DNA of 64,000 nucleotides. Origin: Phlyctochytrium arcticum. Lineage: Eukaryota; Chytridiomycota; Chytridiomycetes; Chytridiales; Chytridiaceae. The position numbers and the translations under genes are program-made. The notes below the pieces were generated by a model. The model was given only the letters and a program-made list of their open reading frames with translations. It was not told where the DNA came from and did no database searches. Location of the stretch: assembly GCA_025602905.1 (NCBI GenBank), contig JAHLKI010000004.1:1116001-1180000 (forward strand), given 5' to 3'. Shown here piece after piece: positions 952 through 42,960 of the stretch. Within the stretch, counting starts at the first letter, position 1; each line of letters starts with the position of its first letter.

Positions 952-3348
952 TCACGGGGGTTCATTCTGAAACATTTTGAAGTTTAAATCTGGTTTTCTG
1001 ATAACAGTTCTTTCAATTCTGTCCTCGGGGTTGTTTGTCAATTGGTAAGTCATTTTGAACCATTTCGCAACTGTTAAAGAATTCACCAGATTCTTCTTCG
1101 TGTACTCATTGACCTCCTCTGGAACTTTTATCGAGAGATCCAAACTTCCATCTTTCTTTACAAACTTTAATTTAAAGAATCTCATTAGTATGAGAATAAA
1201 TGTGTCTCGATATTCTGGAGAGGAGAAAAGTCTTTTAAGGTTTGGATCAACTTGACGAACAATTTGTTCATCTTCACCATCATCCATTTGGACGGCCTCT
1301 TCTTCATCCTCTTCTTCATCATTACATTCTGCAAATGTAACGGTGTAAGGGATCATTTTCGCCGAAAGAGCAATAGCAGTATCAATACGGTCGAATTTTG
1401 GATCTTAGTTTGTTTGAATATGGAGAGCGCCAGTCATAGGGAACGTAAGAGGTTTGCCGTGAAGTGTCCGAACCGGATAAGGGTCATTTCCTCGAATGAT
1501 TTTAATTTCATCAGAAGCAAAGGATTGACCAACTTGAGGTTCAGAAGTAGCGAGGTATCTCTTACCAAAACAGTTAAACATTTGGGCATTTGGGGCATCA
1601 CGTTGACCTTTGCTGCGAGTAGTAATACAGTATTTTCAGGTTTGATAAAGTTGAAATAAGTCCCAAAAGTAGATGTAATTAGCGTGGTTTCAGCACCCTT
1701 CCCCATTACGACCGCCTCCTTTTTGTACGTAAAAGGACTCTTCGACAACCTTTCCAAATAAACATCGTACAAGTTGAGCGATACGATAGTCTCGTATTTT
1801 ATCGCATGGAAAGATGCTTGCAAAGAATGACGAGATTGCCTCTCGAATCTCTGTAACTTCTCCCCCGCTAGGGAAAGGATAGCCGCAAGTGTGCAAAATG
1901 TAATCTTTGGCTTCAAAAGGACGAAACGCTCCTTTGACAAGGTCGTAAACGCCATCGGTGAATGCGAACAGATGAGGATTTGAAAGAAAGAGTTCGATAC
2001 AATTGTTGTTTTTAACAGAGAGTCTATCGACATTTTTAGCCACATTTCCAGAGAAATCATTCATTTCGATCGTACGTTGGAACACTTTAAACACATCTTT
2101 AAGGTCGTTGACATTTTGCATATCGTCCTCTGCTTCCTGGATAAGAGATTTAAAGGAGGACACAAGAGTTTTGGCAACTTGAATATTTAAGTCACTTGCT
2201 CCAATAGTGTCATACTCGCGCCAGATATTGTCTTTCCCGAGGATATAGAGAAAACCGCTCGTATGTTTCATGATACTATCGGCACTTTGCTCTTCAATAA
2301 ACCATTTTGCGGCGTTGAGAGGTGTTGGAGCATAAAGTCGCTTGAAATCAAAATATTTCCATTTGCCAGATGGTAAATCCCGCAGTGCTTCGAAATCAAT
2401 ATCTTCTTTTTGCTTTTTCTTGGGTGGCTCCTCTTCATCATCCTCCTCTTCATCATCTTCTTCCTCCAAAGGGTCATACTTCAAACGGAATTTCTCCAAA
2501 ATCGCATCAGATACAACAAGTGGTTTTTCCGCCAGTTTAGTATGAATACCACATTTGTCAATGACGAATTGTGAACATTCATCAAGTAACTCTTGAGTCA
2601 TATCGTGACCCTCTCTTTTCCTAATCATTCCACCATCAAAGATTAGAGCATCAACCGACCACCCCCTATCGGTGAAGAATCGATCCATTAAAAGTGTCAC
2701 TTTGTTTTCGAGGGTTTGGGTAACTTGTGCGATAAAACTGCCTTCGCGATTGCCCTTAATAGTAGCATCTCGGGATGTTCTCACTTTTTCCCAAATGTTG
2801 TGATACTCGTTTTTTAGAATGGGGCAAAGTGTGGTGTAAATAACTGAGTGTATCACAGAAAAGAAAGGGTCACTGATTTTACGCCCAGTGAATAACATCA
2901 TGGAAACGACCTCTTGTTTGTCAATTTTCTTTTCTGTTAAGATAGTAGAGCGATTTTCGACATAGTGAGTTAGAGCATCACAAGTGATAGAATTCCTTTT
3001 AAAGAGATGAGCAATTAAAGTAAATATAGAGTTTACTTGGTCTATATCATGATACCGTCCTGCTGCTAGATACTGTCTAAAGTGATTTTCTCTTGCCTCG
3101 AGATTCTGAAGAGACATTCCTCTAGCCCACAATCTGCCAATTTGCTCATGGGCGCTTTTCTCTGAATAAGCATATTCAGTGCGATAAAGATTTTTTCCAA
3201 CTTTGCAATGCTTAAGAGCACGCAAACGGGTCTTCAGTTTGTGTAAAACGAATGGACTCTGAAGACAATATTTGATATGAATGTCATTGATATACTCGAA
3301 CTTTTCAATGGCGGTATCACTTGATAATTTTGGACAAAAGTCAGACAT
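952..3348 (-). pseudogene. TVpol-like polymerase fused to D5/SF3 helicase, broken
   Basis: About 800 codons. The N-terminal half holds a TVpol-like region (transposon-viral polymerase, family-A related): a GSFIAQVTQTLEN stretch and LIFDGGMIRK, matching the motif-C type aspartate. An acidic linker (DDEEEDDEEEPPKKKQK) follows at residue 300. The second half has a D5_N region (LFAFTDGVYDL, AFRPFEAKDYI) and the SF3 helicase. The frame breaks inside the Walker A loop near 1700, where a G run has one base too many, again near 1600 within the helicase, and a TAA lies near 1400 before the C-terminal part. The remaining motifs (e.g. ATSEPQVGQSFASDEIK) are readable in the other frames. It would be the replication protein; this copy cannot work as sequenced. 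It ends close to the viral left boundary, so the C-terminus may also be clipped. Confidence 0.8.
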
Positions 3349-3584
3349 AATTGTTGTTATTGAATGTTTAGTTTCTTTCCTTCTTTAAACAAGAGTTTTA
3401 TTTCTTTAAATAACAATTAAACGCAACATCGACATCCGAAACGGTATTTGTCATAATCCATCACATACATCGAAATTTCTCGAATTTGATGTAGACGATG
3501 ACTCTTTCAAACGCAACGAATGAAATATTGATTCACATTTAAAAAGATAGTAAAATAGTATAACATTATTTTAATATTCTTGCA

Positions 3585-3728
3585 ATGACTGGGTCAAAAA
3601 GCATTTATACAGCAGTTGTAACTTTCCTGGGAGAAGAACGATCGGTTGAAGCACGGAGCATTCGACAATTGGCACGGAAACTCGGCGTATCTCATCCGAC
3701 AATTCATAAAATGCTCAACAATCGCTAA
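3585..3728 (+). CDS. 47-aa helix-turn-helix protein
   Basis: A short ORF of 47 codons, intact. Residues 24-46 (RSIRQLARKLGVSHPTIHKM) form a textbook helix-turn-helix: a basic helix, a Gly turn and a recognition helix with SHPTI. It resembles the N-terminal HTH of transposases and of small phage repressors. It is transcribed divergently from the polymerase-helicase gene (start 3348) across a 236-bp AT-rich gap that contains AAACGCAAC twice (3419 and 3509), so it may regulate that gene or be a leftover DNA-binding head of a larger protein. Function is inferred only. Confidence 0.55.
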   Translation: MTGSKSIYTAVVTFLGEERSVEARSIRQLARKLGVSHPTIHKMLNNR

Positions 3729-3810
3729 ACTACTAGGATGAAGGCTGTAATCACAGAAAAACCAAAGAATAAAGAAAAGTGATATATGACCTGGGAGATT
3801 CTATTCTTCA

Positions 3811-4050
3811 TCAATCATCTAATTCAAGTTTGGAATCTTTAAAAGTATCGTAACATGGATAACAACACACACGATTTCTCATGTATGGAATTATAATTTG
3901 ACACGTTACATTATCCCGAGAATAATCTTTACAAACACGACATCCGTCAGGGACAATAGGAGAGCCATTTTCAGCAAACTTGACTTGATATGGTGTTGAA
4001 TACTGTAGATAGGCATTTTGTACGGTATACTTAAAACAGTATAAAAATGT
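3811..4050 (-). pseudogene. Cys-rich zinc-binding fragment without start codon
   Basis: An open frame ending at 3811 encodes a polypeptide with the pattern CRVCKDYSRDNVTC followed by CCYPC, typical of a small zinc ribbon. No in-frame ATG exists between the upstream stop at 4051 and the cysteine cluster, so the start is lost or lies in an unseen exon. It resembles in style, not obviously in sequence, the other Cys-rich small genes of this virus (21326, 21718, 41009). The conserved cysteines favour a formerly real gene over a chance ORF. Confidence 0.45.
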
Positions 4051-4082
4051 TTAAATATAGCACCAACCGCAAATCCCGTAAA

Positions 4083-4175
4083 GACCCTCACTTTACCGCT
4101 GCAGTTGCTTTACAGATATCGTGTACCTTAAACAAACCGCAGCGGTAAAATGAGGGTCGACCGCTGCGGTTTGTT
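4083..4175. repeat. Nested inverted repeats around a GC-rich core
   Basis: A perfect 16-bp inverted repeat (AACAAACCGCAGCGGT at 4131-4146; complement at 4160-4175) has a 13-base loop. Its left arm and loop also pair with 4083-4102 with one mismatch. Two mutually exclusive hairpins can therefore form. The structure lies at the border between AT-rich viral DNA and the GC-richer spliced island that starts at 4292. Confidence 0.7.
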
Positions 4176-5658: not shown

Positions 5659-5745
5659 CATCTTACATCAATAACATTTTATCGATAAAGATTTAAATTG
5701 TTATATAAACGATAGTATACTATAATGGTTATCTTAGTTGGCAAC

Positions 5746-6783
5746 ATGGCTCTCACACAATTTCTTAACAAAGAAGCAAAGTCTTTCAAATCTGACTCCA
5801 AGAGAGTCTCACAGTACGAAGAAAAAGGAATCTTCAACAAAGATTTATTTTGTGACATTGATGTAGTCAAAAGTCGCATACAAGAAGTGCATGGTGGAAA
5901 ACTAGCCCAGAAATCCGTAGCCGATTACGTCGGCTTAGTTCGGCGTGTATTGAATAAAGCCGGTTTCCAGCACTGGGATATACCGGAAGCCGAATTCGAT
6001 ACTCTCATTAAACGATACGATGTTTCCATCCACGAACTTCGCAACTCGACTCCTCGATATAATGGGGTTCCGCAACCCACGGACACCATAAATTATGAAG
6101 AGGTTGTTAAGAAGATGTTGGAAAAGTATGAATCTGTCGAATACGTTTACGATAAATATGAACCAAGCCTTGAACAAATCGACGAACTACAAACGGCGAT
6201 AATTGGTCTGGTGCCCGTTGTATTTTTCAATGTTCAAGCCAATTACATGACTTTGAAAAACTTTTCTCATAAGAATGTTTCTCATTTAAAGGATAATGTC
6301 CTCATAGTGGATAATTGCTTTAATGCAACTATTCTGTGGAATGAACGGAAGCAAGTTAGAATAAATGTTACTAAAAGAACGCGAGACGAATCGGTAGTTG
6401 AAGACTTGGCTCTGCCAAGAGGCTCGCTGTGCGAGCCAGTTGTTGATACAAAATCATTCATTCAAGCCATGGTCAAAGTCCCGTATGATTCAGTTAAAGG
6501 AGTAAACCCTGTCCAAATGGTGAGAATTCTGTCAAAGTTCTTTTGGCGATTTCGAAAGAATTCTTAATATATTTTTGTTGATAAAGAGGGCAATTCGTTT
6601 AAGGAAGACTCATTCCGTAAGCGAATAGTTTCTGCTACGGGACATGGGATTGCAGAACTTCGAAGAGGTCAAATCACCAATATTCACAAGGAACCGTTGA
6701 AAAATGAAACGCGTGAATACCTTGCTGCTCAATGTCACCACTCAAAAGCCGAAAATGAACTGTATAATAGACCCCCTTTGTAA
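5746..6783 (+). pseudogene. Tyrosine recombinase (integrase), one in-frame stop
   Basis: 346 codons with a TAA at 6565-6567. The N-terminal ~110 residues resemble a SAM-like core-binding domain. After the stop the same frame encodes the C-terminal catalytic part: ATGHGIAELRRGQITN (the LRR Arg) and AAQCHHSKAENELYNR (the second His and the nucleophile Tyr). The box-I Arg is not identifiable in the expected segment (VVFFNVQANYMTLKNF), so either the family is divergent or a key residue is lost. ATG 5725 is seven codons upstream and is an alternative start. It faces the DDE integrase tail-to-tail with 14 bp between them. It would integrate or excise a circular viral genome. A 36-bp double hairpin is embedded in frame at 6403-6438. 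Confidence 0.65.
6403..6438 (+). repeat. In-frame double-hairpin element, copy 1
   Basis: Two adjacent hairpins: TTGGC/GCCAA with loop TCT, then GGCTCGC/GCGAGCC with loop TGT. The 36 bp encode DLALPRGSLCEP inside the tyrosine recombinase. Copy 2 at 13899-13934 has identical stems in the same order and the same reading frame, with both loops replaced by their reverse complements. Confidence 0.85.
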
Positions 6784-6797: not shown

Positions 6798-8140
6798 TCA
6801 TCTCGCTCCATTCTCATATTCCTCTACCAGATCCATTACTTCTCTTAAATTCGACAACGGTTCCCAGGTATCGGCACTTTGATCATATCCTAACCATCTT
6901 ACACGATACTCGACTCGACGGTTCTTTCTTCTTTTACCAAGAATGAAATCGACCTCATAGAAACCCTCTCGATTTTGTCGTAGAGATTGTCGAGTTGGTT
7001 GAACATCCTCCTCTTCAGGTTCTTCCGTTGCTATATTCTGCTATATAATATCATTCGGAATTTCTTCTTCCTCATCCTCATCGTCGTCGAATTGATCCAC
7101 AATTCGTTTCGCCTTTTGAACAGCAAGACTAGTTATATTATCGCTAATTTGGATAGGGGGAATTGGTAAGAGTGATGTTTTTGGATATCGGCCATACATA
7201 ATGTCTCCATTCTGTTTTGCTATTCTGTAAGATGGTAAAAAGTTGGGATGTGCCGTTTCGATTCTTTGAACAATAGTGTATATCTCCTGATCCCAAAAGC
7301 CTTTTAAGGCTGGTTTCTTCAAATCTCCCTTAATAATACGCTTTTTCCGGACTTTTTGCCCTAAAAACAACGGTTTTCCAATTTGATGAACTTTGTATCT
7401 AGATGCAATTGTTTTTTCGATACGGTTTTTTGCAGATTCAAGTGTTGTCGCATCCCCTCTTTCCATTTCATTCGGAGAGAATCCTGTCGCGGTTGACTTT
7501 ACCGAAGATTATTGACCCATTTTTTGTCTCCATTGGCTTCCATAATCTGATAAAGTTGCTTTTTGATATCGCCCCCTCTCCGTTCTATGAAGGCATTCGA
7601 TTGCGGGCGATATGCTTGTGAATAAAAATGTTTGATTCCATTGTCTTCGAGTTCTTTTGTAAAAAGTTTTTGAAAATGTCCACCATTATCTGTTTGAAAT
7701 ATTGAAATTTTCTTTCCTTCTCTTCGAGCCTTGTCAAGGCACTTCTTTAATGCGGCGGTGACCTGCTCTTCCGATTCCCCCCGTTTCGGTTGGGCATAAC
7801 CCTTTTTTGTGAACCCGTCGATCATATGAAAAAATGCTGTAAAACCACGATCTGCATAGGTCCGCATGATTACAAGATCAGCCTGTACATATCCAGGTTT
7901 GGTAATCTTTAATGGAGCAATACTTGATGGCTTATCGGGCCTTCTTTGTGTTTGCCATTTAGGTTTGTATTTGAGAAACGAATTGAGAACTGACCTCTGG
8001 CTTCCCTTGAAGTCGGGGTAAACTTGTCGCGTCTTTTCCCAGAGCGAATCGCGGCCAGTCTTGAACGTTTTGTAAACACTTTCCAGTTGTTGCTTTTCTA
8101 TATCGGTAAGTTCTCGCCACGACATCTCTTTATTATACAC
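6798..8140 (-). pseudogene. Polinton-type DDE integrase with chromodomain, broken
   Basis: About 448 codons. Residues 80-190 form the rve core: Asp in YVQADLVIM, Asp in FQTDNGGHF, and Glu about 35 residues later in SNAFIERRG. An SH3-like C-terminal region follows (LKKPALKGFWDQEIYTIVQR). The end is a chromodomain at about 6801-6965 (YEVDFILGKRRKNRRVEYRV, then RWLGYDQSADTWEPLSNL). The frame shifts once near 7500 and a TAG interrupts near 7042, between the SH3-like part and the chromodomain. Core plus chromodomain is the known arrangement of Polinton/Maverick integrases and chromoviruses. The chromodomain would steer integration to marked chromatin. Start ATG 8140 follows 28 bp after the stop of the next upstream gene. 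Confidence 0.85.
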
Positions 8141-8603: not shown

Positions 8604-9857
8604 TCACACCACACTTACTAACCCGCCTATACTTAATGACACATTCTCAGCGTACGAAACAAGTAATCTAACTTTTTGAGACGGAGGAGGTGATGCATGG
8701 ACGGTATGTAGTCTCATGAGTGCATCTGTTCCTGAAAAATTTAATGCTGCTGAACTCGCTTCGTCTTTCGACATGAAACTCCAGCCAAGCGAGAATTGTT
8801 TCTGATCATAGTCCTTAAACGAGATATCCATATCGCCAAGAGCATCGAAGGTATTATTGCTCAATTGTGAAACTAATAGCGTTTGATTATCATTTGGACC
8901 GTGTGTAAAACCTTGAACCCCTTGAGGGATGTGGAGTGAGCCAAGTTGAATCTTCCATTCTCGCAGATTTTGAGAGTTGTACATAAGGGCCTTGTCAATG
9001 GCCTGATTACTTAAAACATCATTATCAACGAAAACCGCTTCGAATCCTACTAGAGACCTTACTCCAGACATGTGGAGAATAACAGTATTTCTCAAACCTC
9101 CGGAACAAGCATTTTCTGTTTGCGTTGTTTTAGTATAATCGCAAAATATTTGGCGACCGCTCGATAGTGCTCGAGTGACATCGACAACCAATGGTGGTGG
9201 TGGGGTAATATATGGTAAAATGCAGCGAATATTAGTGACCCGAATTTCCTGCACTTGATTAGATGTGAAAACTGTGCTAGGATCAGCGAGAGTTAGGGTG
9301 ATCTCGATAGCCTGATTCGGCAAGGCCCATGGGTGGAAAAACTGGTCATTACTTGAAGGATGGAAGAATCCTATCCAAGGGTGAGTGTTCATAGTCACAG
9401 TAGCCGAATCTTTGAAGACATTCGTGTTTCCATATCCGGAAAGTTGGTTCATCAACTTTTTCTGACCAACAGGGACGTTTTTATATACGGTATTTATATA
9501 GGCTGGATAATTATCAATTTTTTGGACAGCTTCTCCACCTGCTTTAACCGTCATACTTTGGATAATACTATCAAGTCCAAGATAGGTATTTGTTACTGCT
9601 GTTCCAGGTGTAATTAGAGCACCGCCTGCTCCGTAACATGAAACATCCATCGATAGAACAAGTTTCTGAAAAATGAAACTTACAGAGTTTGAATCCATTG
9701 TAATTTTGATTGGAGTCAAGTTTCGAGATTTGGTTGAATATTCGCTTTCACCAACTGGAGAGAAGATTTGCACCCCCTCGCCACGAGGGTCAGAATAGGG
9801 CCTTGCGAAAGTATTTGTATTAACTAACCAATTTCTCGGGACTTGTGTTTCAGTCAT
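8604..9857 (-). CDS. Putative major capsid protein (double jelly roll)
   Basis: 417 aa, intact. The sequence is almost all predicted beta strands, with two similar halves joined by a Pro-rich hinge near residue 215 (ILPYITPPPPLVVDV). The segment just before the hinge (AIEITLTLADPS, VQEIRVTNIR) resembles the end of the first jelly roll in PLV capsid proteins, and the second half has an aromatic stretch, LREWKIQLGSLHIPQG. Length, strand content and position beside penton-like and packaging genes support the call; there is no short diagnostic motif. It is one of few long viral genes without a lesion. It would form the hexon-like capsomers. A minor capsid or other beta-rich virion protein is the alternative. 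Confidence 0.6.
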   Translation of the reverse strand: MTETQVPRNWLVNTNTFARPYSDPRGEGVQIFSPVGESEYSTKSRNLTPIKITMDSNSVSFIFQKLVLSMDVSCYGAGGALITPGTAVTNTYLGLDSIIQSMTVKAGGEAVQKIDNYPAYINTVYKNVPVGQKKLMNQLSGYGNTNVFKDSATVTMNTHPWIGFFHPSSNDQFFHPWALPNQAIEITLTLADPSTVFTSNQVQEIRVTNIRCILPYITPPPPLVVDVTRALSSGRQIFCDYTKTTQTENACSGGLRNTVILHMSGVRSLVGFEAVFVDNDVLSNQAIDKALMYNSQNLREWKIQLGSLHIPQGVQGFTHGPNDNQTLLVSQLSNNTFDALGDMDISFKDYDQKQFSLGWSFMSKDEASSAALNFSGTDALMRLHTVHASPPPSQKVRLLVSYAENVSLSIGGLVSVV

Positions 9858-9896: not shown

Positions 9897-10445
9897 CTAC
9901 CCGAAAATACCACCAAAATCATCATCATCTTGTCCCACATTTCCATATCGTTCTTCTATGAAATCGTCATAATCACTTTCCTCTTCACCAAAAGTTACAA
10001 AATTATTTTTGGTTGTTTTTGCAACTGGTCGCTCGCTGCGCTGCGCTTTTTTTGGTACAAATTTCTTGGTTTTTTCTGCCTTTTCTGCTTTTTCAGCCTT
10101 TTTCCGTTCCCGTTCCTTGTGTTTTCTTTCCTTTTCCAATTCTAATATTTTTTTTGCTTGTTCTATTCGATCCTTTTCTTCATATTCTCTCCGTTCTTTG
10201 TCTCTCTTGGCCTGCATTGATCTCAACTCTCGCGAACGAGCGTTCCGTGCTTTTTCAAGAGCGGCTTTTTGTTTCTCAGACATGACCTGTTTCGGTTTTG
10301 CTTCTTGCTCTGTTGCCAGAACAACGGGTTTCTTCTCTTGCACAACTTCCTGTACAGTCTCTTCATCAGGAGCATTTTCTTCAGACACTTCCCTATCGGC
10401 AATCAATTCTTCGAAATTTTCTGAGTTTTCTGAAACAGAAGTCAT
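9897..10445 (-). CDS. Charged coiled-coil protein
   Basis: 182 aa, intact, 39 bp upstream of the capsid gene on the same strand. Residues 1-50 are acidic. Residues 65-140 are a long Lys/Arg/Glu coiled coil (e.g. RDKERREYEEKDRIEQAKK) with AEKAEKAEK repeats. The C-terminus is acidic (EEESDYDDFIEER) and ends in GGIFG. It may be a scaffold or DNA-packing virion protein because it lies between capsid and penton genes; this is inference from position. Confidence 0.6.
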   Translation of the reverse strand: MTSVSENSENFEELIADREVSEENAPDEETVQEVVQEKKPVVLATEQEAKPKQVMSEKQKAALEKARNARSRELRSMQAKRDKERREYEEKDRIEQAKKILELEKERKHKERERKKAEKAEKAEKTKKFVPKKAQRSERPVAKTTKNNFVTFGEEESDYDDFIEERYGNVGQDDDDFGGIFG

Positions 10446-10487: not shown

Positions 10488-11218
10488 TCATGTATGAATA
10501 TCGCTAATATCGTCTGATAAAAGGAAGCGAACAGTCAAAGGTGAATTGAGCGATATCTCGTTTCCGGTCATCGAGTCAATTAAATGACACTCGATTTTGG
10601 AAATGGTATCGTCTACGGGAAGCCATTCACCTGAATCGTTTGAAAACGTTACCACATCTCCGAAAGAGTCGGGCTGAACTGTACATACAACCATTTGCTC
10701 ATTTTCCTTAAAGTCCGATAAGAAACGTACACCTTTTACAGAGATAGTGTATTCCTTGTTAAAAGAATAGGATAACTCCCTGAAAGGTTGACTGGATTTT
10801 TGAGAGTAAAGGATTTACCATAACCCGTTTCACTCCATCGCGACATTCCAGTAAGAATGTAAGAAGTTGTTCCACGATTGCCTTCAAGTATTTTGAAATC
10901 TGTGGCAGCATTTGTTGATATTTTGAGTTTTCTGGTAACGGAGTCATAACTTGTAAAAAAATTTTGTGTACCAGCGCTCGATAAAGCCGTTCCAATCACA
11001 GTTCCAATATTTCCAATTGTATAATTTCCGGTAGGAATCCTTGCTGTTCTCGGCAGAGAATCACCGTCTTCAACAAATGCGATAGAGTTATTACTTTCTT
11101 GAACGAGATCATAATCTTGAATGAATGATACCGACAAGATTTTCATAAACTCGACACGTCGAGGCTGGATAGAAAAAGTCCGTTTCTTGAGGGAACAATA
11201 AGTAAATTCATTAAGCAT
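10488..11218 (-). pseudogene. Putative penton (minor capsid) protein, frameshifted
   Basis: About 244 codons in two frames. The first 160 residues include a GNYTIGNIGTVIG segment, repeated beta strands and RKLKISTNAATDFKIL, the style of PLV/Polinton pentons (IP-GNY-I followed by a K-h-I strand). The frame changes near 10765. The rest reads KEYTISVKGVRFLSDF and ends ISKIECHLIDSMTGNEISL, NSPLTVRFLLSD, matching the penton C-terminal strand pattern (L-D-x-x-G-x-x-I-x-L). It would close the fivefold vertices and hold the fibre. The call depends on pattern and position only. Confidence 0.6.
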
Positions 11219-11258: not shown

Positions 11259-11969
11259 ATGAAATTCAAACTGACCCCAATTTTTCCAAAGTCGTCGGGG
11301 AAAACCGATTCTCGAGTGCTGCAACCGCTTAGTTCACATCCTTTAAGTACGATTCTTGTAGCGCCGAGGAAATCTGGTAAAAGCGCGCTCATTTGTGGTC
11401 TTATCGAAGATGTCTATGCTCCAATTTTCGACAAAGTTATTATCATGTCGGATACAGCCCAATTTGACAAAAGCATTCAGGAGTTATCAAAGATCACCAA
11501 ACATAAAAACATTTATTTTACAGATGAGGTTTCAAACACTTCTATCGCAGATATCATCGAGAAGCAAAAGTCGGAAAAGGGAAAGGAAACAATTCTCCTT
11601 TTTATTGATGATGCGGCCGATTCTGCTCGCTCGAGAAAATTATTGAGAGAACTCGATAAACGTTTTACAAAAGGGCGACATTTTAATCTGTCAATTATAG
11701 TATGTTGTCAAGCCATTCGATCGCAGTTATCTAGCAAACAGAAAAATTGCTCTACAGAATGGATCGTTTTTAAAAATAACACCGAAGACTTGAAGATATT
11801 AGCAAAAGTTCTTACGACAGCATTCGCCGAAGAAAAGCAAGTTCTTCAATTTTTAACAGAATGCACAAAAGAAAATTACTCATTTTGTTATGTGAATTTG
11901 ATGGGAGCAAGTGCTAACGAGATATATAAATATTGCGATTCAACGGGTTTTCATGATTATGTATTCTAG
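11259..11969 (+). CDS. A32/FtsK-HerA-like genome-packaging ATPase
   Basis: 236 aa, intact, typical length for PLV and Polinton packaging ATPases. Walker A is VAPRKSGKSAL (residues 34-44). Walker B is ILLFIDDAAD (about 114-123). A downstream FNLSIIVCCQAIRSQL strand ends in the conserved sensor Gln. It would pump viral DNA into the capsid. It diverges from the penton gene (40 bp between start codons) and overlaps the end of the next minus-strand gene by 4 bp. Confidence 0.85.
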   Translation: MKFKLTPIFPKSSGKTDSRVLQPLSSHPLSTILVAPRKSGKSALICGLIEDVYAPIFDKVIIMSDTAQFDKSIQELSKITKHKNIYFTDEVSNTSIADIIEKQKSEKGKETILLFIDDAADSARSRKLLRELDKRFTKGRHFNLSIIVCCQAIRSQLSSKQKNCSTEWIVFKNNTEDLKILAKVLTTAFAEEKQVLQFLTECTKENYSFCYVNLMGASANEIYKYCDSTGFHDYVF

Positions 11970-12277
11970 GAAACATTCCGACCGACCCTATCGATAAACT
12001 CATCGCCTTCTTTGTGCAATTCATTTAATATTTTAACAGCAGATCCAGATTTTTCAACTCGTCTCTCCGCACGCCCTCGAACGTTTTCATTGAATAATTT
12101 GGGTGATTCCTGCACGGCTTTGTTAACGCCTTCTATCGTACGTTGTCCCTTTTGAACTGCTCCAATGGCTGAGGTTGCAAACGAACGACCCTTTGCTAGA
12201 TAACTCGGAGCATTTGTCCATAAAGTCTTTGCATGGCTTTTTGCCCTATTAAAAAAATTTCCAAACTTGTTGGCCAT
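11966..12277 (-). CDS. Small basic virion-type protein
   Basis: 103 aa from ATG 12277 (MANKFGNFFNRAKSHAK); an in-frame ATG at 12334 would overlap the neighbouring gene. It is basic and amphipathic, with an Ala/Lys-rich middle (SYLAKGRSFATSAIGAVQKG). Its size and place next to the ATPase fit the small membrane-active or core proteins of adenovirus-like viruses, but sequence alone does not show it. It is intact. Confidence 0.5.
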   Translation of the reverse strand: MANKFGNFFNRAKSHAKTLWTNAPSYLAKGRSFATSAIGAVQKGQRTIEGVNKAVQESPKLFNENVRGRAERRVEKSGSAVKILNELHKEGDEFIDRVGRNVS

Positions 12278-12327
12278 CTCTTCTTTTCTAGTAAGAGGAG
12301 ATAATATTTTTCTGATCATATATACAA

Positions 12328-31911: not shown

Positions 31912-32137
31912 CGAACAAGATCTGGAACCTTATCAACTTGAATCACCAGGATGCAAAGCGTGCCGGAAGGAAATACCTTTTATAGACCTCAAGTACAAGC
32001 ATATGGATAAAGATGACTATCCGTTCCATGCGAACTGGAAAGAGAAGGTGCAAAAATGGAAAGAAGAGTGTCAAAATGGACAAAGACCCGCTTGGAGGGA
32101 GATTTTGAGTAAGAAAAAGGGCAAAACGGAGATTTAA
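31912..32137 (+). pseudogene. Zinc-finger gene, 3' part, beyond Helitron A
   Basis: The frame reads LEPYQLESPGCKACRKEI and ends ILSKKKGKTEI before TAA 32135-32137. It aligns with the C-terminal half of the 21326-21589 protein (QLPGCKVCRGELP). It has no start of its own and completes the gene begun at 21718. A copy of the 40-bp viral motif (32138-32178) follows directly. Confidence 0.7.
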
Positions 32138-32178
32138 TCTTGAAAATGCGTTTGAATTACAATTATAAGAAATTCTCT
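32138..32178. promoter_or_regulatory. Repeated 40-bp motif, copy 2
   Basis: CTTGAAAATGCGTTTGAATT and flanking bases match 21617-21660. Here it lies between two convergent gene ends, overlapping the stop of the receiver gene, so a promoter role is less obvious than for copy 1. Once both Helitrons are removed the copies are only ~0.5 kb apart. Confidence 0.45.
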
Positions 32179-32337
32179 TGTTCTTGAAGCCGCCCATCTA
32201 GAAATCCGAAAATACTTTTAATATTATCCATCGACAGGGGTTTTGCATAAAATTCAGTCGCACCAGGGTCTAGCGCTGCTTTTTCGAGTTCATGACTCGA
32301 AGAGAAAGCAATAATTTTTATTGGATTTTCGTTTATT
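32163..32337 (-). pseudogene. Receiver-domain gene, 3' part
   Basis: The minus-strand frame reads NPIKIIAFSSSHELEKAALD, then GATEFYAKPLSMDNIKSIF. This is the second half of a response-regulator receiver domain: the Ser of the AFSSS strand and the invariant Lys in AKPLS. The first half is at 40702-40966. TAA is at 32163-32165. Helitron B separates the halves. Confidence 0.75.
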
Positions 32338-32812
32338 CTCTGGTATATACCAGAGTCTTAGAGGGGTCTGAGGCACCACCAAGTGTCGCCTTTGAAACGC
32401 CCCTGGCCCAGTCACCCCAGACCCTTGTTTCCATGGAGAATGGGGGTATTTCTTTTGTTTTTTTGTAGATCAAATTGCATTTTCTCCAGATCCCACGCTT
32501 TTTCCTACGAGCTGAAATTTTTTAAGACATTCGGAAAATCGGACATTTTTTTCTCTTGCATCCCATATGATTTTCCTTGGGTGGTCAGCATCATAGTGTG
32601 CTCAAATAATTTTCAAACGCACGTGGGATTTTCTCAGCTGAGTCCGGAGCAGAGTTCCTCAAATTTTGCTTACGTAAGCACGGTCCACCTCACTGCCACC
32701 GTTTTTGCTCGTGCCTTTTGCGATGAATCTTCACGGTGCCGGTCCCGTTCAATGTTGGTGCGTTGTGAGCGATCCTTGATATCATACCTCACTTTCCTTT
32801 CCCGCTGGTCGT

Positions 32813-32946
32813 TGTCTGTTATCCTGTAAGGATTCCATCGCGTCCTTTAATATCCACTTGGGCGATAATACAACTTGTCTGTTATCCTGTAAGTATTCCA
32901 TCGCGTCCTTCAATATCCACTTGCGCGAAGGTCTGACCAATACAAC
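32813..32946. repeat. 63-bp tandem duplication in Helitron B
   Basis: TGTCTGTTATCCTGTAAG and the following ~45 bp, including CCATCGCGTCCTT, occur at 32813 and again at 32876. Located between the end of RepHel and the Helitron 3' terminus. Confidence 0.75.
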
Positions 32947-33043
32947 TTTTTAGGTACTTTACCATAGAGTGACCCACAGTGCTACTTGTACCTTCCAAGA
33001 ATAAAAATCTGATTGAAACTACTTCTATATTACATGAGTTCTA

Positions 33044-36000
33044 CTAGTCATCCCCGAACAGTTCGATGAAACTCTCTTTTGTGCTGGCAGTGCGTACAAA
33101 CTCTTCCATCCTAACGTCCGTCTGACCTGCTAGTTGTTTTAATCGCTCTAGCTCTTTGACAATTTCGGGACTTGGTTTGAAGTATTCTATGTCGGCAGCA
33201 GTCAGCGGCTGTAATATTCGAGTCGCCATGGGTCCTTCCAGTGTCGTTCCCCGTGACCAACCAACGTACATAGAGGCGCGCTGCGGACTTTTCCGAAGTG
33301 GTGTCAGTGGCGGTGCTAATAATAGTACGGTAAGTCCTTGGATTTTGTCGACAGTCAAAGAAAACGCTAACACAAAAGGCAGCTGGGTGATGCGAATCTT
33401 GAAACTGCGGTGGGGTAGCTTCACTTGCACTGCACTGGTTGCTTGAAACGGACGGATCCCCACTACGCCGCGCGGTAGACCTGGTTGTAGTTGAACATTT
33501 TCGTGATTTTTCAGCGCCACGAAAACTATGTCCGGCAATTTGTCGGAGATCAAAAGGCGTGTTCCGTTACCAAGTGTCGACTCTGTCAATGTGCCCGCAT
33601 CGTTTAACTGAATTTTTACTACCGTACCGAGCGCTCCATTCAGCAATTTTCTTCTGTGATCCACGTTCTTAGTGATTTGCACCGGAGCTCCAACACACAG
33701 ATCCAGCGTCATGGCCAATGAACCTGTTGATGTATCTGGCAACTTTCGCAAACTCCACCTCTCTTCTGCCGTCACATTTCCTTTTCGCGTTGCTTTTACG
33801 ACAGCGCCGAATCGATACACGACCTCCTGCCGTCCGAGCGCGAATTTCTCTATGCAACCCCTGTTAAATGCAACGCGATGGAAGTTGGCTGTTGTAAGAA
33901 TTGGTCGAAAAAGCTCCGTATCATTCACAATTGGTCGTTCTCCTGGCGTCAACACTTGTCCGTTAAGCAGTGCTATGTCGTCCTTGCTTAAGTGACCGGT
34001 TCGCATGTTGGTCATCAGTTTCGCATACGGAGTTTGTGCGCCTTGTCGCATGTTCCGGGTCAAAAAGAAGACATTACGAATTCCGTGATATATCCGATGG
34101 CCCGTTGCTATTCTGGCTGCATCCGAAGCCTTCAATCGGGTGTATAGTTTAGTTCCTGACCATGCTGATAACTGGTACCAATCCCCACAGATAAGTATCG
34201 ACACTCCACCCATCTCCAAGTGCGGTTTATCCATCACCATCTTCAGGGTTTCTTCTAGCAACGCGACATACTGCTTACTGAGAAGTGTTGTCTCATCAAC
34301 AATCAGTAATTTCAAAGGTGCAAATCGGAGTATTTCGGTAGGAGTGACTCGTGTGCGACGTGTACATATGGTAGTCCAGTTAAACATTTTGTGTAGATGT
34401 ACTCCCCCCGCGTTTGCGCCTGCCATCCCTGTCGGTGCAGTTGTCATCACTGCATCAGGCCGCCCCCAGCTTCTTGCCAAGTGAAGAAGTGCTTTGAGAA
34501 TAAAGCTTTTGCCGGTACCTGCCTGCCCCCACATAGATGCTGTCACACGACATGAACTGCCGTTGGTCCCTCTCGATTTGCTTAGAGACACATCATCTTC
34601 TGCTGCAAATGCGAATATCAAGCCTGCCGCAAACAGAACGAAGATACAGTGCTGCTCTTTGGTCAATCCGAAATGTTGCGATACTTGTGCAATGGTTGGG
34701 AATTCGTCCACCTGTGCGTTAGGCGAGTTTGCATGCGCCTCTCTCCATTCCGAATCTCCCAAGCAGCATTCATAGTGTTCAATTTGAGTCGCCATCGTTG
34801 GAAACAGTGCATAAATTTGTGCCCGTCGGTCAGGCATGGCGTTCTCCGTAGTGACGAGATGTTCCACCTCGTTGGCCGCTGCATCAAATTCGTGAAGATT
34901 GCTGACATGCCCGATCTCTGTTTGCCACGTCGGTACCGATCCCAATGTTGTAGCGAACGCCATGGCTTCTTGAGTGCAAGGCACGTCCCTCAAATCCGTC
35001 ATGGGTTCCTCGTCGTCCTCTGGGTCAAAATCTTCGTAACTCGCCTCACTGGACGTGTCCGATGTCTCCGAGACGCTGTCATCCCCATCCATGCATTCCG
35101 TTTCGTCTGATGTCCTCAATATCACGGGAAGTTCGGGATGGTTTTCGCGCAATTCGGCCTCTCTGTTGCGACGCCCCTGCTCCGCTGCACGTCTTTTACC
35201 GAGGTAGTGGTCCTCCGTGTTGCGCAGGAATCGTCCTAGCGCTAAAAAGTTGGCAGAACCGTCGTCAAGTGCCGTATAGTCGTAAAATGATTGTTCCCAG
35301 CTGCTGGAAGTCTTCAAACACGCTAGCGTCCGATACGGTTTGAAGAGAAACAGAAGTATTTGGAACGTGCGCTCACGTTCGGTCTCGGTCACATCATCCC
35401 TTGTCAAATCAGCTATTCGCTTCGTAACTACATTGACAAACACCGTCTTCTTGCGCTTCTCCAATCGGTGCGATCTCCGTTGTGGGTGCCCTTGTATGAA
35501 CTCGTGCGTTCCTGCCACGTTCTTGGTCTTACGTTTCATGTACTCGGCAGTGAAGGAGTATAGACACATACTCTCAAAGTCGTTGGATGCAGGTCGGCCC
35601 AAGTAGTCGCTCCCTTTGTTGACGGCTATCAATTTCTTCGCGGGGCCTATACTGTTATCTCCCATGCTTTCTTCTTCACCGATGCCCGCATCTTCATCGT
35701 CCGCGCCATCAGCTCCCCGCCCAAAGACCACATCTACTTCTCCCTCAAGTGTCATTGCGTTAATGATCGATTTTATGTACAGGTTTTCAACATCGTGCGA
35801 CTCGTAGAATGCCGACTTCCGGAGAAGATAGAGCGCTGCCATCGTGGACGTCACTTCCATCTTGCCGGTCAATTCCGTGACCTGCCGTTTCATTCGACGA
35901 AAACCCTTTGGTCCATGCAGGAGTCTCTTCACCATCCACGGAGTTGTTCTCCCGTTGCTGACTTTTGCGATGCGCAGATAAGTAGATTGTGTGAATCTTT

Positions 36001-38633
36001 TCGAATTGAACTTGTGGTTTATACGTGTATTTAAGGACATACTGCTTGATATCGGCCGCTTCCCCTCCCAGCAACAGGCGTATGTCGTGGTTAAAACGAA
36101 ACGTGCCGGCAAACAATGGATTGTAGTTGTTCAAATACAGCGACCCATTCTGGCGTTGAAATGAGACTGTCATGGCTGAAACTTGCGTGCTGGCAACTGG
36201 GTACTCTGGTTTCAAGAACCGACAATAGGTACCACTGGGGGTGCGGACACTCTTTTTGTAGCAACTCCGAGCGTGTTTCCACGAATGCTCTTGATACGCG
36301 AACAGACTCTTCTCAAAGTTGAGTACATCTTTTGCACATCGTGGTTCAATAATAGACTCTAATGGAACAGGATCCCAAGTGCAGTTTGCATAATCAACAT
36401 CCGTCTGTGTCCACAGATCCACGCTCAAAATGCCGCTCCGTGTCGCAAAATATTCAGCAGAGTTGCTTGCTACATCGCTATCCGACATACTTTCCCCGCA
36501 CCCGACACATACTATTGCTGATACCGGTGCCGACCAGTTCGCACGCGCCCGACGATATGCTCGTAGTGGAATTGGTTGGAACTCGAGCGGTGACGTGCAT
36601 GAAGGACAGAAAGGATGTAGTGGAATCGGTGATGTGCTGCTGACCACAGATGCGGCATAATCCGCTATTTGCTGAAGGCTTATTGATGCTGTTGGGCCGC
36701 TGGCTAGTGCCATGTATCGCTGCGTCGTTGAGGGAAGATTATATACCCATAGTAAGAAATGGGCATGAAGATTTCCAGACCCTTGCGTCTCCACTGCTCC
36801 CGAAAACGCCTTTATCACCCCTAAAGCCCCTCCGCCTCGTTTCGGCTGTTGCTTCGCAGTATCCCATCCCAGGAATTCAGAAATAATGACATCAATGACG
36901 CGTTCGAAGTGCCTTGCGACCGCCATTGGGTTCTTGCCAACCTCCGCCTTCCGTTCCTCTCGTGACATTGCTTTAATGCGCTTATTGATTCCCGACACCG
37001 CCCTGTCTGCACCTTCGTACTGGCTATACTGCACAACCCGAAAAGAATTCATTGAGTCAGGTGTGACGGTGAAGAAAATGTTCGGTAGACCCAGCGTATT
37101 CGTGTACGCGTTCAAACGATTCATGGCGGCGACTCGCTCTTCATTAGAACCCCAGTACGAACTCATGCCAGCCTGAACACCATTCTGCAACGCCAAAACT
37201 CCTGCGCCCACGGGTGCTACATTTGCCACCGGCAAGGAGCGCCTGGCAGCTTCCGTCCTCGCTGCTTCCCGTTCGGCGTAGCGTTGGATTTCCTCCACCG
37301 TAACTGTAGCTGCTAATTCGGCCGTTTTGGGCGACAAACGACATCGGAGATATACTGACGATCGAGCTCGCGTCCTTGCCGCAATGTTGAATGCCATCAA
37401 TATGAATGCTGGATGCTTGGCAAATCGCTGCTTGGGAAGCCTGAGTACATAGGCTATCCATTCTTCGAGGGATATCGGATTCTTTCGTCTTTCACTTGGT
37501 CCTCCTCGACCGTATGACAGAAGTTCCGGGATCCGCAAGTACCAGGATTCGGGGTCGTCGTCTGATACAAACGTTGTTGACCTTTTCATGAGTACACGGT
37601 TGGGGTCCTGATGATCCACAAGGAGCTGAATTACTCGTTTTACTTGGGTTCCATTGCTTTCGTCCGTTCGACTTTGGATGATAAGTGATGTTTCGCTTTC
37701 CATTTGGACTTCCGCGCTCACGTAGTTTTCACTTTCAGGTGTTGAAGGCACGCGATGAGTACTGGTAGACGCTTGTAGAGTTGCTGATATCTCAGCGTAC
37801 TCCGGGTCGTCTTTCGAAATATTGGTGATGATGGTGGCTTCCTCAAAGACCTTATCCGGTAAGGAGCTGTCGACCGTGATGTGCTCGTATATTCTGTTGT
37901 GCTCTTTATAGAATGATAGGAGAGAGTATATGGTCTCCCGATCACCGCGATACTCCTTTGCGACACGGATCGACTCTTCCTTGGTGAACGCACCAACAGT
38001 CGTAACGAATATGTCTCCGGTCGGTGCCATATCTCTGGGAAGAAGAAGTGCTGGGGGTGCAGGATCGGCCAACATTGCATACGAGTGTCCTTTCAATCTA
38101 TTAAAACTTCCTCCGTAAACGACTGCAATGTAATGCGCGCACTGCGCAGGGGCCGCCATGCTGAAATCAACCATTGTCGCTCGCTCGAAGAGTTCCTCCG
38201 GCAGGGATCCCACAAAGTTCCCATTCGCAATGGCAAAGCGTGGTGGTGTTTCCGCTGGACGCTGTAAAGATTCCAGGCACGGGTGGCAGAAGTGCATCTT
38301 CATATCGGACGTTCCTGCGGATCCATTGGAGGAGAAACCGCTGCGTGATAGCATAATTCCTGTGAACCGCGTGTCTAAATCGCTGACATCATATTCATCT
38401 GCGAGTCGTTGTGGGACATCTTCCGGGCAGCGTAGTCGAGAACGCATCGCACTGATTGGAACATGTGGTGACTGCAGTGATATCTTCGTGATATGCGACT
38501 GAGTGGCCAGTGCCCCGCAAACTGCGCATACTTCTTCATACATATTGGCATCCGACATCGCCGCCTTTGTGTCTTTGTACACCCTCTTCAAGGTTTCTGA
38601 TGTTATTGGGCCGAGGATGGGGTTATCCTCCAT
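33044..38633 (-). pseudogene. Helitron B RepHel, intact except a one-base frameshift
   Basis: About 1860 codons. Reads from the zinc finger (CAVCGALATQ, MKMHFCHPCLESL) through TVTPDSMNSFRV, HUH motif GSGNLHAHFLLWVY, a His/Cys cluster (HSWKHARSCYKK) and the Tyr region DIKQYVLKYTYKPQ. The helicase follows: Walker A MWGQAGTGKSFILK, Walker B LLIVDETTLLSKQ, CGDWYQLSAW, FSLTVDKIQGLT, and YVGWSRGTTLEG. The only lesion seen is one extra base in a short T run near 35900 (A run on the plus strand). The open frame extends upstream of ATG 38633 (RQRKNHAPQFYTPDELA), so a 5' exon may exist. If the indel is a sequencing error the element could be active. Confidence 0.8.
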
Positions 38634-39523
38634 TGTCGCCAGTTCATCGGGGGTGTAAAATTGGGGTGCATGGTTCTTACGTTGCCTTTGTCGCGCCTGA
38701 TTTCGATGCAGACGATGCCGCGCACATTCCTCTTCTGAAGGACGCGAACTAACATCATACTCATTTAGCTGCTATGATGTGGATCTTGCTTACATGTACT
38801 ACACTCACATTGGATTGTTCCTTTGCGCGCGTGCCTTGGGCTTCCGCGGCATTCTGCTTAACCGATTTACTTATTGTTTATTACGTTGTCTTCACTGTAT
38901 CGTCCTTGCAATAACAGCTACTTATGTCAATTGTATCAATTATGGGGCCTTTCTGTACCTCTTCCAATCTTACAGTACTCCACAAGGGCATTCATATTTA
39001 TATTCCTCTTATATATTCGATCTTATTCATGTTCTCTGGTGTTCCAGCTCGTACCTGCCATTTTTTTAAGGTTTATCTTACCATATTTTGCTGCTTGTTA
39101 CTTGTTTGCTTCATTATTTGTGACGAAAAACAACCTTAATTTGCATCCGTGGCTCTTGCCGTAAATAGTCACTTTCGTTTCAATTAAGATCAGTCGACAA
39201 TGTAACCTTTGCAAAACTTGCATTTCCCCTCCTGCCTACAATGGGACCATTGGCCGAAGGCTGTAATGGCCTCTATCTTATGAGGATCCGCTCCATTCCA
39301 GACCGTTCTGTGCTGTTTGTTCATGTTTGTGCTCACATGTCCTCCCCAATAATAGATTGGACATAGCGACCTTGGCCAAACATTGCATTTCCCTTCTTAC
39401 CCATTGGGCTTTGTAGGTCGTTCAAACCGATTCTGCTATCTCCGCCCCTCTCCCTCTCTCACTACATAAAGAGCGCCATTCCAAACTCCCTTCTCCCTCT
39501 TCCATACCGTCAACGCCATCATA
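38634..39523. other. Divergent intergenic region of Helitron B
   Basis: Carries the promoters of RepHel (-) and the AT-hook gene (+). AACTTGCATTTCCCCTCCTG near 39217 recurs as a diverged copy near 39382. No independent gene is supported. Confidence 0.4.
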
Positions 39524-40483
39524 ATGCTCATCATCACTTCAATCGTCAAAGTCGTCGAGCTTACTCCGTTGGACAAGTACAAGTTCGATGTCCAACTCGT
39601 GGTCCCCATCGTAGGTGGCGACATACTCCATCTCCCCGCATCCGTGTGGGTTAAGCAAAACCGTATCGAAGAACCTGTCCTCGATGCCTGCTACTTCTGT
39701 GTTGCCGCGGTCCTCGATCCCACAACTGACGAATTACAAATCTATACTCTCCACCGCCTCCACGACGATGCTGAACCTTTCCCTGCACAAGTTTGTTGCA
39801 CCGGACTCGTACACTCCACGCAGAAGGAGTCCGCTAAGGTGTTATTCCGCGTCTATCGAAACAACGTTGAGTCCTTCAGGCCCGTCACAGTTACCCATCC
39901 CGGAGGTTGGGGACCAAGAGCCAATGTTCTCCGCCAAAATACCGTTGTCGAGGTGGTCGGTGAGCTGATTTCTCTCGGGGAAATCGCCTTCACCAACTTT
40001 TACACTAACGGCGGCACCGGAAAGCTGCCCTCAACCTCAACCACCGCTGTTTCCTCTAAAGCTGCGAACATTTGGGGCCGGAAGCCTACCGGGCCGGTTG
40101 CAACCGCAACCTCTTCCACCTCTCTCTCTTCGCCAAGTTCGTCGTCCTCTGGAGTTGCCACCCCCCCATCGCGCACCATCTTCTTGGTTCAATCGGAGCC
40201 CCAACCAGTCATACACCCCTTACCCCCAGCCCCGAAGTCAACCCTAACTGCCAGCGGCAAACGGCGTGGTCGGCCTCCCAAGTCCAAAGTTGCTGCTGTT
40301 GCCGACGTTTACGATACCCCGGATACCCCGCCTGCCAAGGCTCGAAAGCTTTACGACAGTTTCTCCATGGCTAGGAGCTCCAATAACCCGTCGCCTGTCG
40401 TGCAGCTCGATCATGAATCAGACGACGACGACGACGACGCCCCTCTCTCAACCCACAACCGCCTGCGCAATTATTATGATTAG
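39524..40483 (+). CDS. AT-hook protein of Helitron B
   Basis: 319 aa, intact. Homologous over its whole length to 22078-23043: conserved LPASVWVKQNRIEEPV, YFCVAAVLDPTTDELQIYTL and HPGGWGPR segments, Ser/Pro linker, AT-hook GKRRGRPPKSK, acidic run and final RLRNYYD. It reads away from RepHel towards the Helitron 5' end, 215 bp short of it. Retention in both Helitrons argues that it matters for transposition. Biochemical role is not shown; single-stranded or AT-rich DNA binding is plausible. Confidence 0.65.
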   Translation: MLIITSIVKVVELTPLDKYKFDVQLVVPIVGGDILHLPASVWVKQNRIEEPVLDACYFCVAAVLDPTTDELQIYTLHRLHDDAEPFPAQVCCTGLVHSTQKESAKVLFRVYRNNVESFRPVTVTHPGGWGPRANVLRQNTVVEVVGELISLGEIAFTNFYTNGGTGKLPSTSTTAVSSKAANIWGRKPTGPVATATSSTSLSSPSSSSSGVATPPSRTIFLVQSEPQPVIHPLPPAPKSTLTASGKRRGRPPKSKVAAVADVYDTPDTPPAKARKLYDSFSMARSSNNPSPVVQLDHESDDDDDDAPLSTHNRLRNYYD

Positions 40484-40701
40484 CCTCCTTACTTTGACAG
40501 TGCCATTCTTCATCGTTTTATAACTTTCCTTGCTTCAAGTTTGTATTACTTGTTATGACGTTTTTCTGGACAATTTGTTCGTTCATGTCTGTTCGTTTAT
40601 TTTCGCTAATATGATAACTTCCTCGTACACTCCATTCCCCCGTTAGCATTTCATTAACCATCATATACCAGAGCTAATCCCCGCAGCGCAGCCCGGGGCC
40701 C

Positions 40702-41585: not shown

Positions 41586-41756
41586 GTTTTGTTATTATAA
41601 GATCAATTTTTATCTCAACAATACAACGCGAAACACATTTTACAAAGAACTGAGAGCGGTAGTATGGGAGAAACGAACAAAGACGACTCGATACTTTGTA
41701 GGGATAGAATGGAAGAATGAGTGAATCGGGGATCGATGAAGAGGGGTGACTAGGTT

Positions 41757-42133
41757 AGGAAAAAGGTGACAGTTTGGTGACAGGTAAAAAAAAAACCTTC
41801 ACCACTCGATACATGTAGGAAAATAAAAATTTATTAATAAAGTTGTGTAGTGTTTCTATGAAGGGAAAAAAAAGGTGACAGAAATGACAGTTTTTTTGTA
41901 AGTTAATTTTTTGTATAGAATTTTTATGAGTGAGCAGAAGTTCACAGAACGTGTGAACTACTAATCACTAGTCTAAAAACTGTATCCTCAGGGACTTTAC
42001 CTCAAAAAAACTGTCATCTCTGTCACCTACATGTAAAATGGAGGGAAATATCTAATGAAAAGTGTCTCTCACTCGAGACGTGGAGTAAAAAAAACTGTCA
42101 CCAAAAGTGTCACCAAAAGTTTCACCTTTTTTT
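41757..42133. repeat. 375-bp quasi-palindrome with GGTGACAG arms
   Basis: Outer arms (41757-41800 and about 42086-42133) both read AAAGGTGA...GGTGACA when viewed from outside. Inner arms (41870-41898 and 42002-42031) read AGGTGACAGAAATGACAG versus AGGTGACAGAGATGACAG. The centre is a hairpin, AGTTCACA/TGTGAACT with loop GAACG (41939-41959). All three pairs share a midpoint near 41947. Candidate replication origin or joined terminal inverted repeats of the virus. Confidence 0.75.
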
Positions 42134-42264
42134 GGGATGATATCGATATCGATATCAATAACAGAAAATGTTATAAAGGATTGAAAGTCCCGTAATAAGG
42201 CCGCTCCATAATCCGAATCATCATCATCACCATTCGACAGCCACTCGAAAAGAAAAGGGAAAAA

Positions 42265-42657
42265 ATGGATTTATTGAAAGACTGCGTGCTGGAGTTCATA
42301 AACTTGAATGAATCAGAGGAGTTCAAGAAAGCCGATCGTGTAGTGAAAAAACATGCTTCGGCTCTGGAATACATCAAGCGGGAATTCAAGCGATTGGAGT
42401 TGAAAGAGATGAGTGTGGATGACGGAGAGGAAACAAAGACTTTGTCGTTTATACTACGGACTTGTATGCGAGTGGATATGTCAGCACTGCCCATGGACAT
42501 TTGAGATATGTATTTGAAGGAAAGCGAAGTATGGTGGAAGAATGTAGAAGTGAAGAAGAAAGTGCATGTAGAACCGGCTGTTGTTGATGACACGATATTG
42601 ACAGATGAAGAGGAGGATGGAGAGCCCGATGCAAAAAGACGTAGGATTAGTGTTTAG
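42265..42657 (+). pseudogene. Small viral protein with nuclear signal, one in-frame stop
   Basis: 131 codons with TGA at 42502-42504. Before the stop: MDLLKDCVLEFINLNESEEF, a helical domain. After it: YLKESEVWWKNVEVKKK and an acidic segment ending in DAKRRRISV, a nuclear-localisation-like tail. Divergent from the genes left of the quasi-palindrome. No family recognised. Confidence 0.5.
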
Positions 42658-42835
42658 TATTTGTATTTTGTATTTAGCACGTAGTATTTGTATTTGCTGT
42701 TTTTGATTAGATGGAAGGGATAAATTGATGTGTTTAAATGACGGAAGTGCCTTGCCGTGACAAGCGGCACCACTCGATGAAATATGGAGAGGGATGATTC
42801 ATGATGTGTAAGATGACTCGATGTTTGATGGAGGC

Positions 42836-42950
42836 GACCTTATCATAAGGTCACATAGTGGAGAAGCGGCCTTATAATAAGGTCAAATAGCGGGCTTCAC
42901 AGTTGCCGCGTAGTTGGGCATAGTTGGCCCATAGTTGGCCCATAGTTGGA
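42836..42950 (+). repeat. Two short repeat families near the viral right edge
   Basis: CGACCTTATCATAAGGTCA and CGGCCTTATAATAAGGTCA are palindromic repeats ~34 bp apart. ATAGTTGGCCC then recurs about three times in tandem (42909-42950), followed by a C run. They mark the transition from viral to transposon DNA. Confidence 0.6.
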
Positions 42951-42960
42951 ACCCCCCCCC

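Follow-up and report, generated by a model that had tools for sequence, protein, structure and literature searches.

The window analysed here is a stretch of 64,000 nucleotides (C4:1116001-1180000) of the Phlyctochytrium arcticum genome (31.5 Mb). C4 is its contig, the other contigs are labelled Cn in the same way, and positions without a contig label are those of the window. It holds most of a provirus that is almost certainly a Polinton-like virus (PLV). The terminal repeats of this element and of its relatives elsewhere in the genome finish in 60-102 bp palindromes with TG...CA tips, and these were found in two PLV lineages. A reading of the window made from sequence alone (hereafter the sequence-only reading) had described an integrated PLV in a fungal genome, and the capsid, A32 ATPase, D5/SF3 helicase, rve+chromo integrase and adenovirus-type fibre agree with it. 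Its probable basidiomycete host was mistaken, as the capsid protein was 100% identical across 99% of the query to P. arcticum DFS34DRAFT_590943 and NCBI taxonomy places the species in Chytridiomycota, Chytridiales.

The provirus extends from a left tip at C4:1108570, 7.4 kb left of the window, to a right tip at 43050. It measures 50,481 bp in total and CAGAA adjoins both tips. Positions 952 and 42960, proposed earlier as virus ends, were rejected, since the left bound falls at the edge of an insert and the true tips lie elsewhere. The size of 50.5 kb is due to three inserts, two of them Helitrons. The viral features of the window are as follows.

1000-3339, minus strand: D5/SF3 helicase with an unassigned N-terminal half, its architecture TVpol-like; broken, covering residues 9-785 of an 832-aa relative
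5725-6567, plus strand: tyrosine-recombinase-like protein; stop after 280 residues versus about 342 in relatives
6801-8140, minus strand: rve (DDE) integrase with chromodomain; frameshift after about residue 213
8604-9857, minus strand: major capsid protein, double jelly-roll (DJR); open
9897-10445, minus strand: 182-aa charged protein, conserved in relatives; open
10491-11218, minus strand: penton candidate; a frameshift parts the 156 and 85 residues that match a 241-aa relative
11259-11969, plus strand: A32-type packaging ATPase; open, Pox_A32 E 3.3e-9, over the cut-off
11966-12334, minus strand: 122-aa conserved protein; open
12328-13967, plus strand: 534-aa conserved protein; frameshifted
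14028-19645, plus strand: adenovirus-type fibre gene; spread over two or more frames, a single 1945-aa open reading frame (ORF) in relative E4
41628-43050: right terminal inverted repeat (TIR); 41628-42603 matches C4:1109001-1109975, inverted, 97.1% over 976 bp
42961-43050: right-end terminal palindrome, eroded by indels; z of its DNA fold -13.2
43051-43055: 5-bp target-site duplication (TSD) CAGAA; its partner lies directly left of C4:1108570, outside the window

Gene breaks were mapped by tblastn of relatives' proteins against the window copy. The capsid, ATPase, 182-aa and 122-aa proteins were open and most core genes were broken; the provirus is defunct. Many of the genes broken here stay open in other genomic copies. 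Pfam found rve in the window integrase and rve plus Chromo in that of a relative. The SF3 part of the helicase matched the poxvirus D5 and African swine fever virus (ASFV) C962R primases in a PDB search, and its TVpol-like assignment follows the architecture given in PMC4642659. The DJR verdict on the capsid was reached in a second look with VIA-align. PDB searches with capsid, penton and fibre gave no significant row, the penton search being made with a profile; the penton candidate is homologous to deposited 'penton' proteins. The product of 5725-6567 is called tyrosine-recombinase-like on the basis of a motif.

Searches of the whole genome returned 64 capsid, 49 ATPase and 73 integrase rows, which do not equal elements because broken genes yield several rows. 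Sorted by identity, the capsid rows formed lineages A (window-like), B (40-56%), C (26-31%) and D (weaker). The rve+chromo integrase was present in lineages A and B. Five lineage-A elements (E2-E6) and one lineage-B element (B1) were fetched through ATPase hits alone. E2-E5 carried palindromes starting TGTGATAGTGCA at both tips with zero arm mismatch, and B1 carried TGTCACGGTGCA palindromes. TG/CA edges were present on both sides of each palindrome. Pattern searches, which themselves partly fix the outer palindrome bases, located motif A at 32 places and motif B at 31, and the reversed-pattern controls gave 0 for both. Sixteen elements were delimited: five via ATPase hits (E2-E5 and B1), ten via palindromes, and the window's own; with 10/16 found by their palindromes, the set is no test of palindrome frequency. 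The 5-bp flanks were identical in 15/16 and agreed at 4/5 positions in E2, while cross-element pairings of flanks matched at 5/5 positions in 5 of 240 cases.

Comparison of the left and right palindromes in the 16 elements showed nine pairs to be the same, one to be in reverse-complement form and six to differ. The window differs by decay and the C3 element by one extra mismatch; E5 and the C18, C2 and C42 elements carry truly different palindromes, each of them symmetric save for a short central loop in one. Single-strand DNA folds gave z of -13.2 and -16.6 for the window tips and -21.2 for the left tip of E5. Exact-motif palindromes were present no more than 6 kb from the capsid end at 15/25 lineage-B loci and 1/10 lineage-C loci; the lone lineage-C match proved to be the tip of an adjacent B element. 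At six loci with lineage C and D capsid genes no terminal-type palindrome was found within 3 kb, and one farther out is possible.

Symmetry was counted at inner positions of the arms. In the 12 unique type-A palindromes (positions 13-27), mismatches affected 7/180 arm cells; 2000 shuffles gave a mean of 107 and a lowest value of 50. In the 15 unique type-B palindromes (positions 9-24) the count was 1/240 (shuffle mean 129, minimum 54). The comparison is descriptive only, because the unique set mixes related sequences. One too-short type-B palindrome, that of E6 and two 82-bp type-A palindromes were left out of this count. The inner cores remain symmetric although neither their sequence nor their length is constant. 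As unlike palindromes occur on single elements, end-to-end copying is an incomplete explanation of the symmetry. For background, IMG/VR was scanned with the B pattern; the 114 stretches hit gave 122 readings, the best with 3 mismatches at 16 variable arm positions and none near-perfect; motif A had no match there.

Centres were tallied by hand for ends with a clear interior side and an asymmetric centre. Read from outside to inside, the 12 ends gave TGGAG 3 and CTCCA 2, CTTAG 4 and CTAAG 3 (7:5), distributed as follows.

TGGAG/CTCCA centres: C3 TGGAG and CTCCA; C23 TGGAG and TGGAG; C45 CTCCA
CTTAG/CTAAG centres: C17 CTTAG; C18 CTAAG and CTTAG; C26 CTTAG and CTAAG; C41 CTTAG and CTAAG

B1, C1:1324344, the right end of the C2 element, C14, C16, C20 and the asymmetric type-A centres were left out of the tally. 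The window's own centre is symmetric and thus uninformative on orientation. Mixed centre orientation is what rolling hairpins predict; other inversions are possible.

The replication genes were compared with the type of end. A search of the genome with PF03175 (pPolB) gave 14 rows, none of them inside the 16 delimited elements, the window's included. TVpol-type or Prim-Pol SF3 proteins were found inside 11/16. A lineage-C PLV at C54 that does bear pPolB has 715-bp repeats (85%), and no palindrome was seen in the stretches of it that were read. Among the close lineage-A elements, E2 and the window have the TVpol-like D5/SF3 helicase and E3, E4 and E5 have Prim-Pol plus D5. The replication gene is swapped between PLVs that are about 75-90% alike in much of the remainder. 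Candidate nickases are the HNH+AP2 protein of E5 and the rve integrase, the latter because the inner palindrome edge offers the same CA end. The recombinase-like protein, considered as a universal telomere resolvase, was unsupported, as its genome search gave 14 rows only, 2 of them distant.

Hairpin unfolding and copying with flip/flop centres is the replication mode of adeno-associated virus (AAV), and parvoviruses in general have terminal palindromes, flip/flop centres and extended ends in the duplex form. The PLVs described here likewise have terminal palindromes with both centre orientations, read here from integrated DNA. They are otherwise different and unrelated, being of a double-stranded DNA virus type with a DJR capsid, an rve integrase and no HUH Rep seen. 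The ends of the palindrome-bearing PLVs of lineages A and B are probably hairpin-templated telomeres. The genome of the presumed virions would be linear, with each end a self-complementary terminal stretch of 60-102 bp. During replication a nick in one strand, at the palindrome's inner edge, would let the hairpin unfold and be copied. Such copying would restore symmetry at each end independently and would invert an asymmetric centre (flip/flop). The rve integrase would join the opened full-length end (...CA-3') to host DNA, which would give the 5-bp duplications. More tentatively, PLVs without pPolB might use AAV-like rolling hairpins, with the integrase serving twice, to nick the inner edge and to link the outer one to host DNA. 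We regard this fuller scheme as doubtful; the double duty is suggested because the palindrome has the same ...CA-3' edge inside and outside. If true, hairpin telomeres would, as far as we found, be new to DJR viruses that bear an integrase.

Several observations weigh against hairpin-templated ends. The evidence on the ends comes from integrated DNA of one genome only, and the finding that both ends are palindromic is free of ascertainment bias for E2-E5, B1 and the window alone. The window's own right palindrome is decayed, and so is the single palindrome seen in E6, which has 1 arm mismatch and a changed tip; the other end of E6 lay beyond the DNA fetched. No exact-motif palindrome was found within 6 kb at 10/25 lineage-B capsid loci. 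The same palindrome stands at both ends in 9/16 elements, which repeat-to-repeat copying could explain. B1 and the C3 element share flanks and so represent one insertion site, duplicated. The right end of the C3 element was read via its duplication, as the neighbour of the palindrome was not the usual interior, and with the reading reversed the centre tally becomes 8:4. Host cruciform or recombination events could also invert asymmetric centres. As to the enzymes, no HUH Rep nickase was found among the PLV proteins scanned, and at the search sensitivity applied 5/16 delimited elements yielded no replication-gene row. A single element serves as the pPolB control; its counterpart at C25 looks like a near copy.

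Symmetric palindromes would also be expected of covalently closed telomeres of the poxvirus or ASFV type, in which head-to-head junctions are cut by a resolvase or the integrase. The matches of the SF3 part to poxvirus D5 and ASFV C962R point in the same direction, as do the terminal hairpins of some giant viruses (PMC12747079). However, full palindromes stand at both provirus ends, including those of six elements not found by their palindromes, and a single-edge cut at such junctions should yield palindromes at only half of the ends. Nor was a resolvase common to both lineages found (the recombinase-like protein is the one with 14 rows, 2 of them distant), and we consider closed telomeres unlikely. 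The palindromes might instead be mere binding sites for the integrase or a replication factor that never pass through a hairpin stage and owe their symmetry to selection and gene conversion. TG/CA ends are typical of rve substrates, and the outer bases, partly fixed by the search patterns, are common within a type and end in TG/CA. Selection on a site is, however, expected to conserve sequence, whereas the inner cores vary yet stay symmetric, and one element can carry two different palindromes; binding sites alone therefore seem improbable, more so than closed telomeres.

Two further alternatives concern what the elements are. They may now be capsid-bearing transposons confined to the chytrid nucleus and viruses no longer. 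The many copies in one genome fit this, and scans of IMG/VR by ATPase, capsid and capsid alignment found no free relative there. Against it, the capsid, ATPase, penton and 1945-aa fibre are open in other copies, and five capsid relatives (48-65% identity) come from contigs of the sources ena and lgn taken as metagenomic. We judge this retirement from viral life to be about as unlikely as closed telomeres. The sequence-only reading had also named a protist contaminant as what would overturn it. A scaffold of protist or algal origin has in its favour that protists are the best-known PLV hosts, but the provirus is TSD-flanked inside a 1.46-Mb contig, and the genome searches gave the 64 capsid, 49 ATPase and 73 integrase rows noted above. 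Of 23 capsid relatives found, 18 had an organism name, and all 18 came from Phlyctochytrium, Spizellomyces, Powellomyces or Gaertneriomyces, all of them chytrids. Contamination can practically be dismissed.

PLVs of chytrids are already on record, and the suggestion that the window would widen the PLV host range is therefore not new. Bellas and Sommaruga 2021 (PMC7805220) reported that the chytrid Spizellomyces punctatus carries an integrated PLV and described an 'S. punctatus group', of which the window provirus is a new member. Both are integrated in a chytrid host, and the S. punctatus capsid SPPG_02195 is 67% identical to that of the window. In a capsid tree of 21 rows, whose deep forks lacked resolution, three S. 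punctatus proteins were nearest after two P. arcticum kin. Some elements of the group have inverted repeats and 5-7 bp duplications (PMC7805220). In contrast, 52% of the group carry a chitinase (same source), and the Pfam matches to the scanned window ORFs included none. The Powellomyces chytrid fungus MELD viruses 2 and 5 (GenBank TPA) have a hexon 63% identical to the window's, and the penton of virus 5 is 64% identical to that of E5. Bellas et al. 2023 (PMC10120064) excluded fungi from their survey.

Mavericks/Polintons share the rve integrase, DJR capsid, A32 ATPase and long inverted repeats; they differ in that the elements delimited here contain no pPolB, have palindromic tips and make duplications of 5 bp rather than 6 bp (PMC12747079). 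The giant Tyrannovirus has terminal hairpins that differ slightly between its two ends, but belongs to another virus group with genomes of 667-671 kb and TIRs of about 100 kb (PMC12747079). Endogenous mavirus-like elements (PMC8547959) are likewise small endogenous DNA viruses with TIRs and have Ngaro transposon insertions, whereas the inserts here are Helitrons and the host is a fungus. The words hairpin, palindrom and fibre are absent from the available text of PMC7805220. Hairpin or palindromic PLV ends had no mention in that text, in the available text of PMC12220804, PMC11071308, PMC8547959 and PMC12721341, or in that of PMC4642659, PMC10328495, PMC9952930 and PMC12747079, and our literature searches, mostly outside subscription journals, did not find them. 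Palindromic PLV ends are thus new in that no earlier description was found; terminal hairpins as such are known elsewhere.

Most PLVs are without the protein-primed polymerase of Polintons (PMC12747079), which raises the question of how their tips are completed. Palindromic, templated-looking ends in two lineages offer a concrete and testable answer on how tips are copied, which may tie to the type of polymerase. The palindromes also allow proviruses to be delimited exactly and, if the arms were identical at insertion, would serve as an age gauge. The P. arcticum genome is a rich natural record of fungal DNA viruses.

Among the other elements, the accessory genes of E5 (C23:264889-289396) encode SET domain and HNH proteins, the latter also matching AP2 less strongly, and one product with a weak F-box-like match. 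At C4:875379-925880 a gap of 584 bp separates two complete PLVs that belong to the same lineage and have their genes in opposite orientations, with flanks TTGTG and TGGTG/TTGTG. An 8.6-kb element at C32:295777-304336, short for a full PLV, has two palindromic tips and a CTGAC duplication and is possibly a non-autonomous or deleted derivative. Palindromic tips lie less than 5 kb from contig ends at C9:924359, C32:304275, C24:422712, C17:1346 and C17:708245, which may reflect either repeats that break the assembly or a subtelomeric preference.

The three inserts of the window provirus were shown by alignment to the insert-free relative E2 (C4:900741-925880). Helitrons and one further insert would have invaded the provirus after its own insertion by the rve integrase.

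1-1006: right end of an insert of about 7 kb; it interrupts the helicase gene and starts to the left of the window, near C4:1110023
about 21654-32137, plus strand: insert that includes a Helitron (ORFs for DUF6570 and PIF1, 24307-29869), by Pfam and comparison with E2
32337-40701, minus strand: Helitron insert (Helitron_like_N, PIF1) that splits a 167-aa gene

The C-terminus of the helicase lies at C4:1109885-1110028, on the far side of the left insert. Window positions 1-1002 are 94.7% identical to C3:264019-264977, which adjoins another PLV. The ORF at 54-671 (plus strand) in this insert resembles ORFs of both Helitron inserts by eye only. The left insert was not kept as a third Helitron, as there was no Helitron helicase row inside it and no match to the other two inserts. 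The Helitron at 32337-40701 has a copy about 99% identical within another PLV, at C3:251707-260074. Helitrons normally leave no target duplication; a 35-bp direct repeat (97%) at 21619-21653 and 32138-32172 flanks the first Helitron-bearing insert.

Helitron helicase copies of at least 97% identity lay within 25 kb of a PLV marker in 10/12 cases (14% of the genome; p 1.5e-7) and within 5 kb in 4/12 (4.2% of the genome; p 0.001), with five radii tried and part of the candidates scored. At 60-66% identity, 2/6 copies lay within 25 kb. Insertion into AT-rich DNA could explain the clustering.

Directly beside the virus end, a very long inverted repeat at 43045-48632 encloses part of a hAT transposase; its arm pieces of 766, 736, 169, 120 and 103 bp are 96-98% identical. 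Farther right, at 51052-53286, 55444-58608 and 60884-62702, lie more transposons: an integrase with an SH3_retrovirus part and a gag-like ORF, another Helitron, and a MULE.

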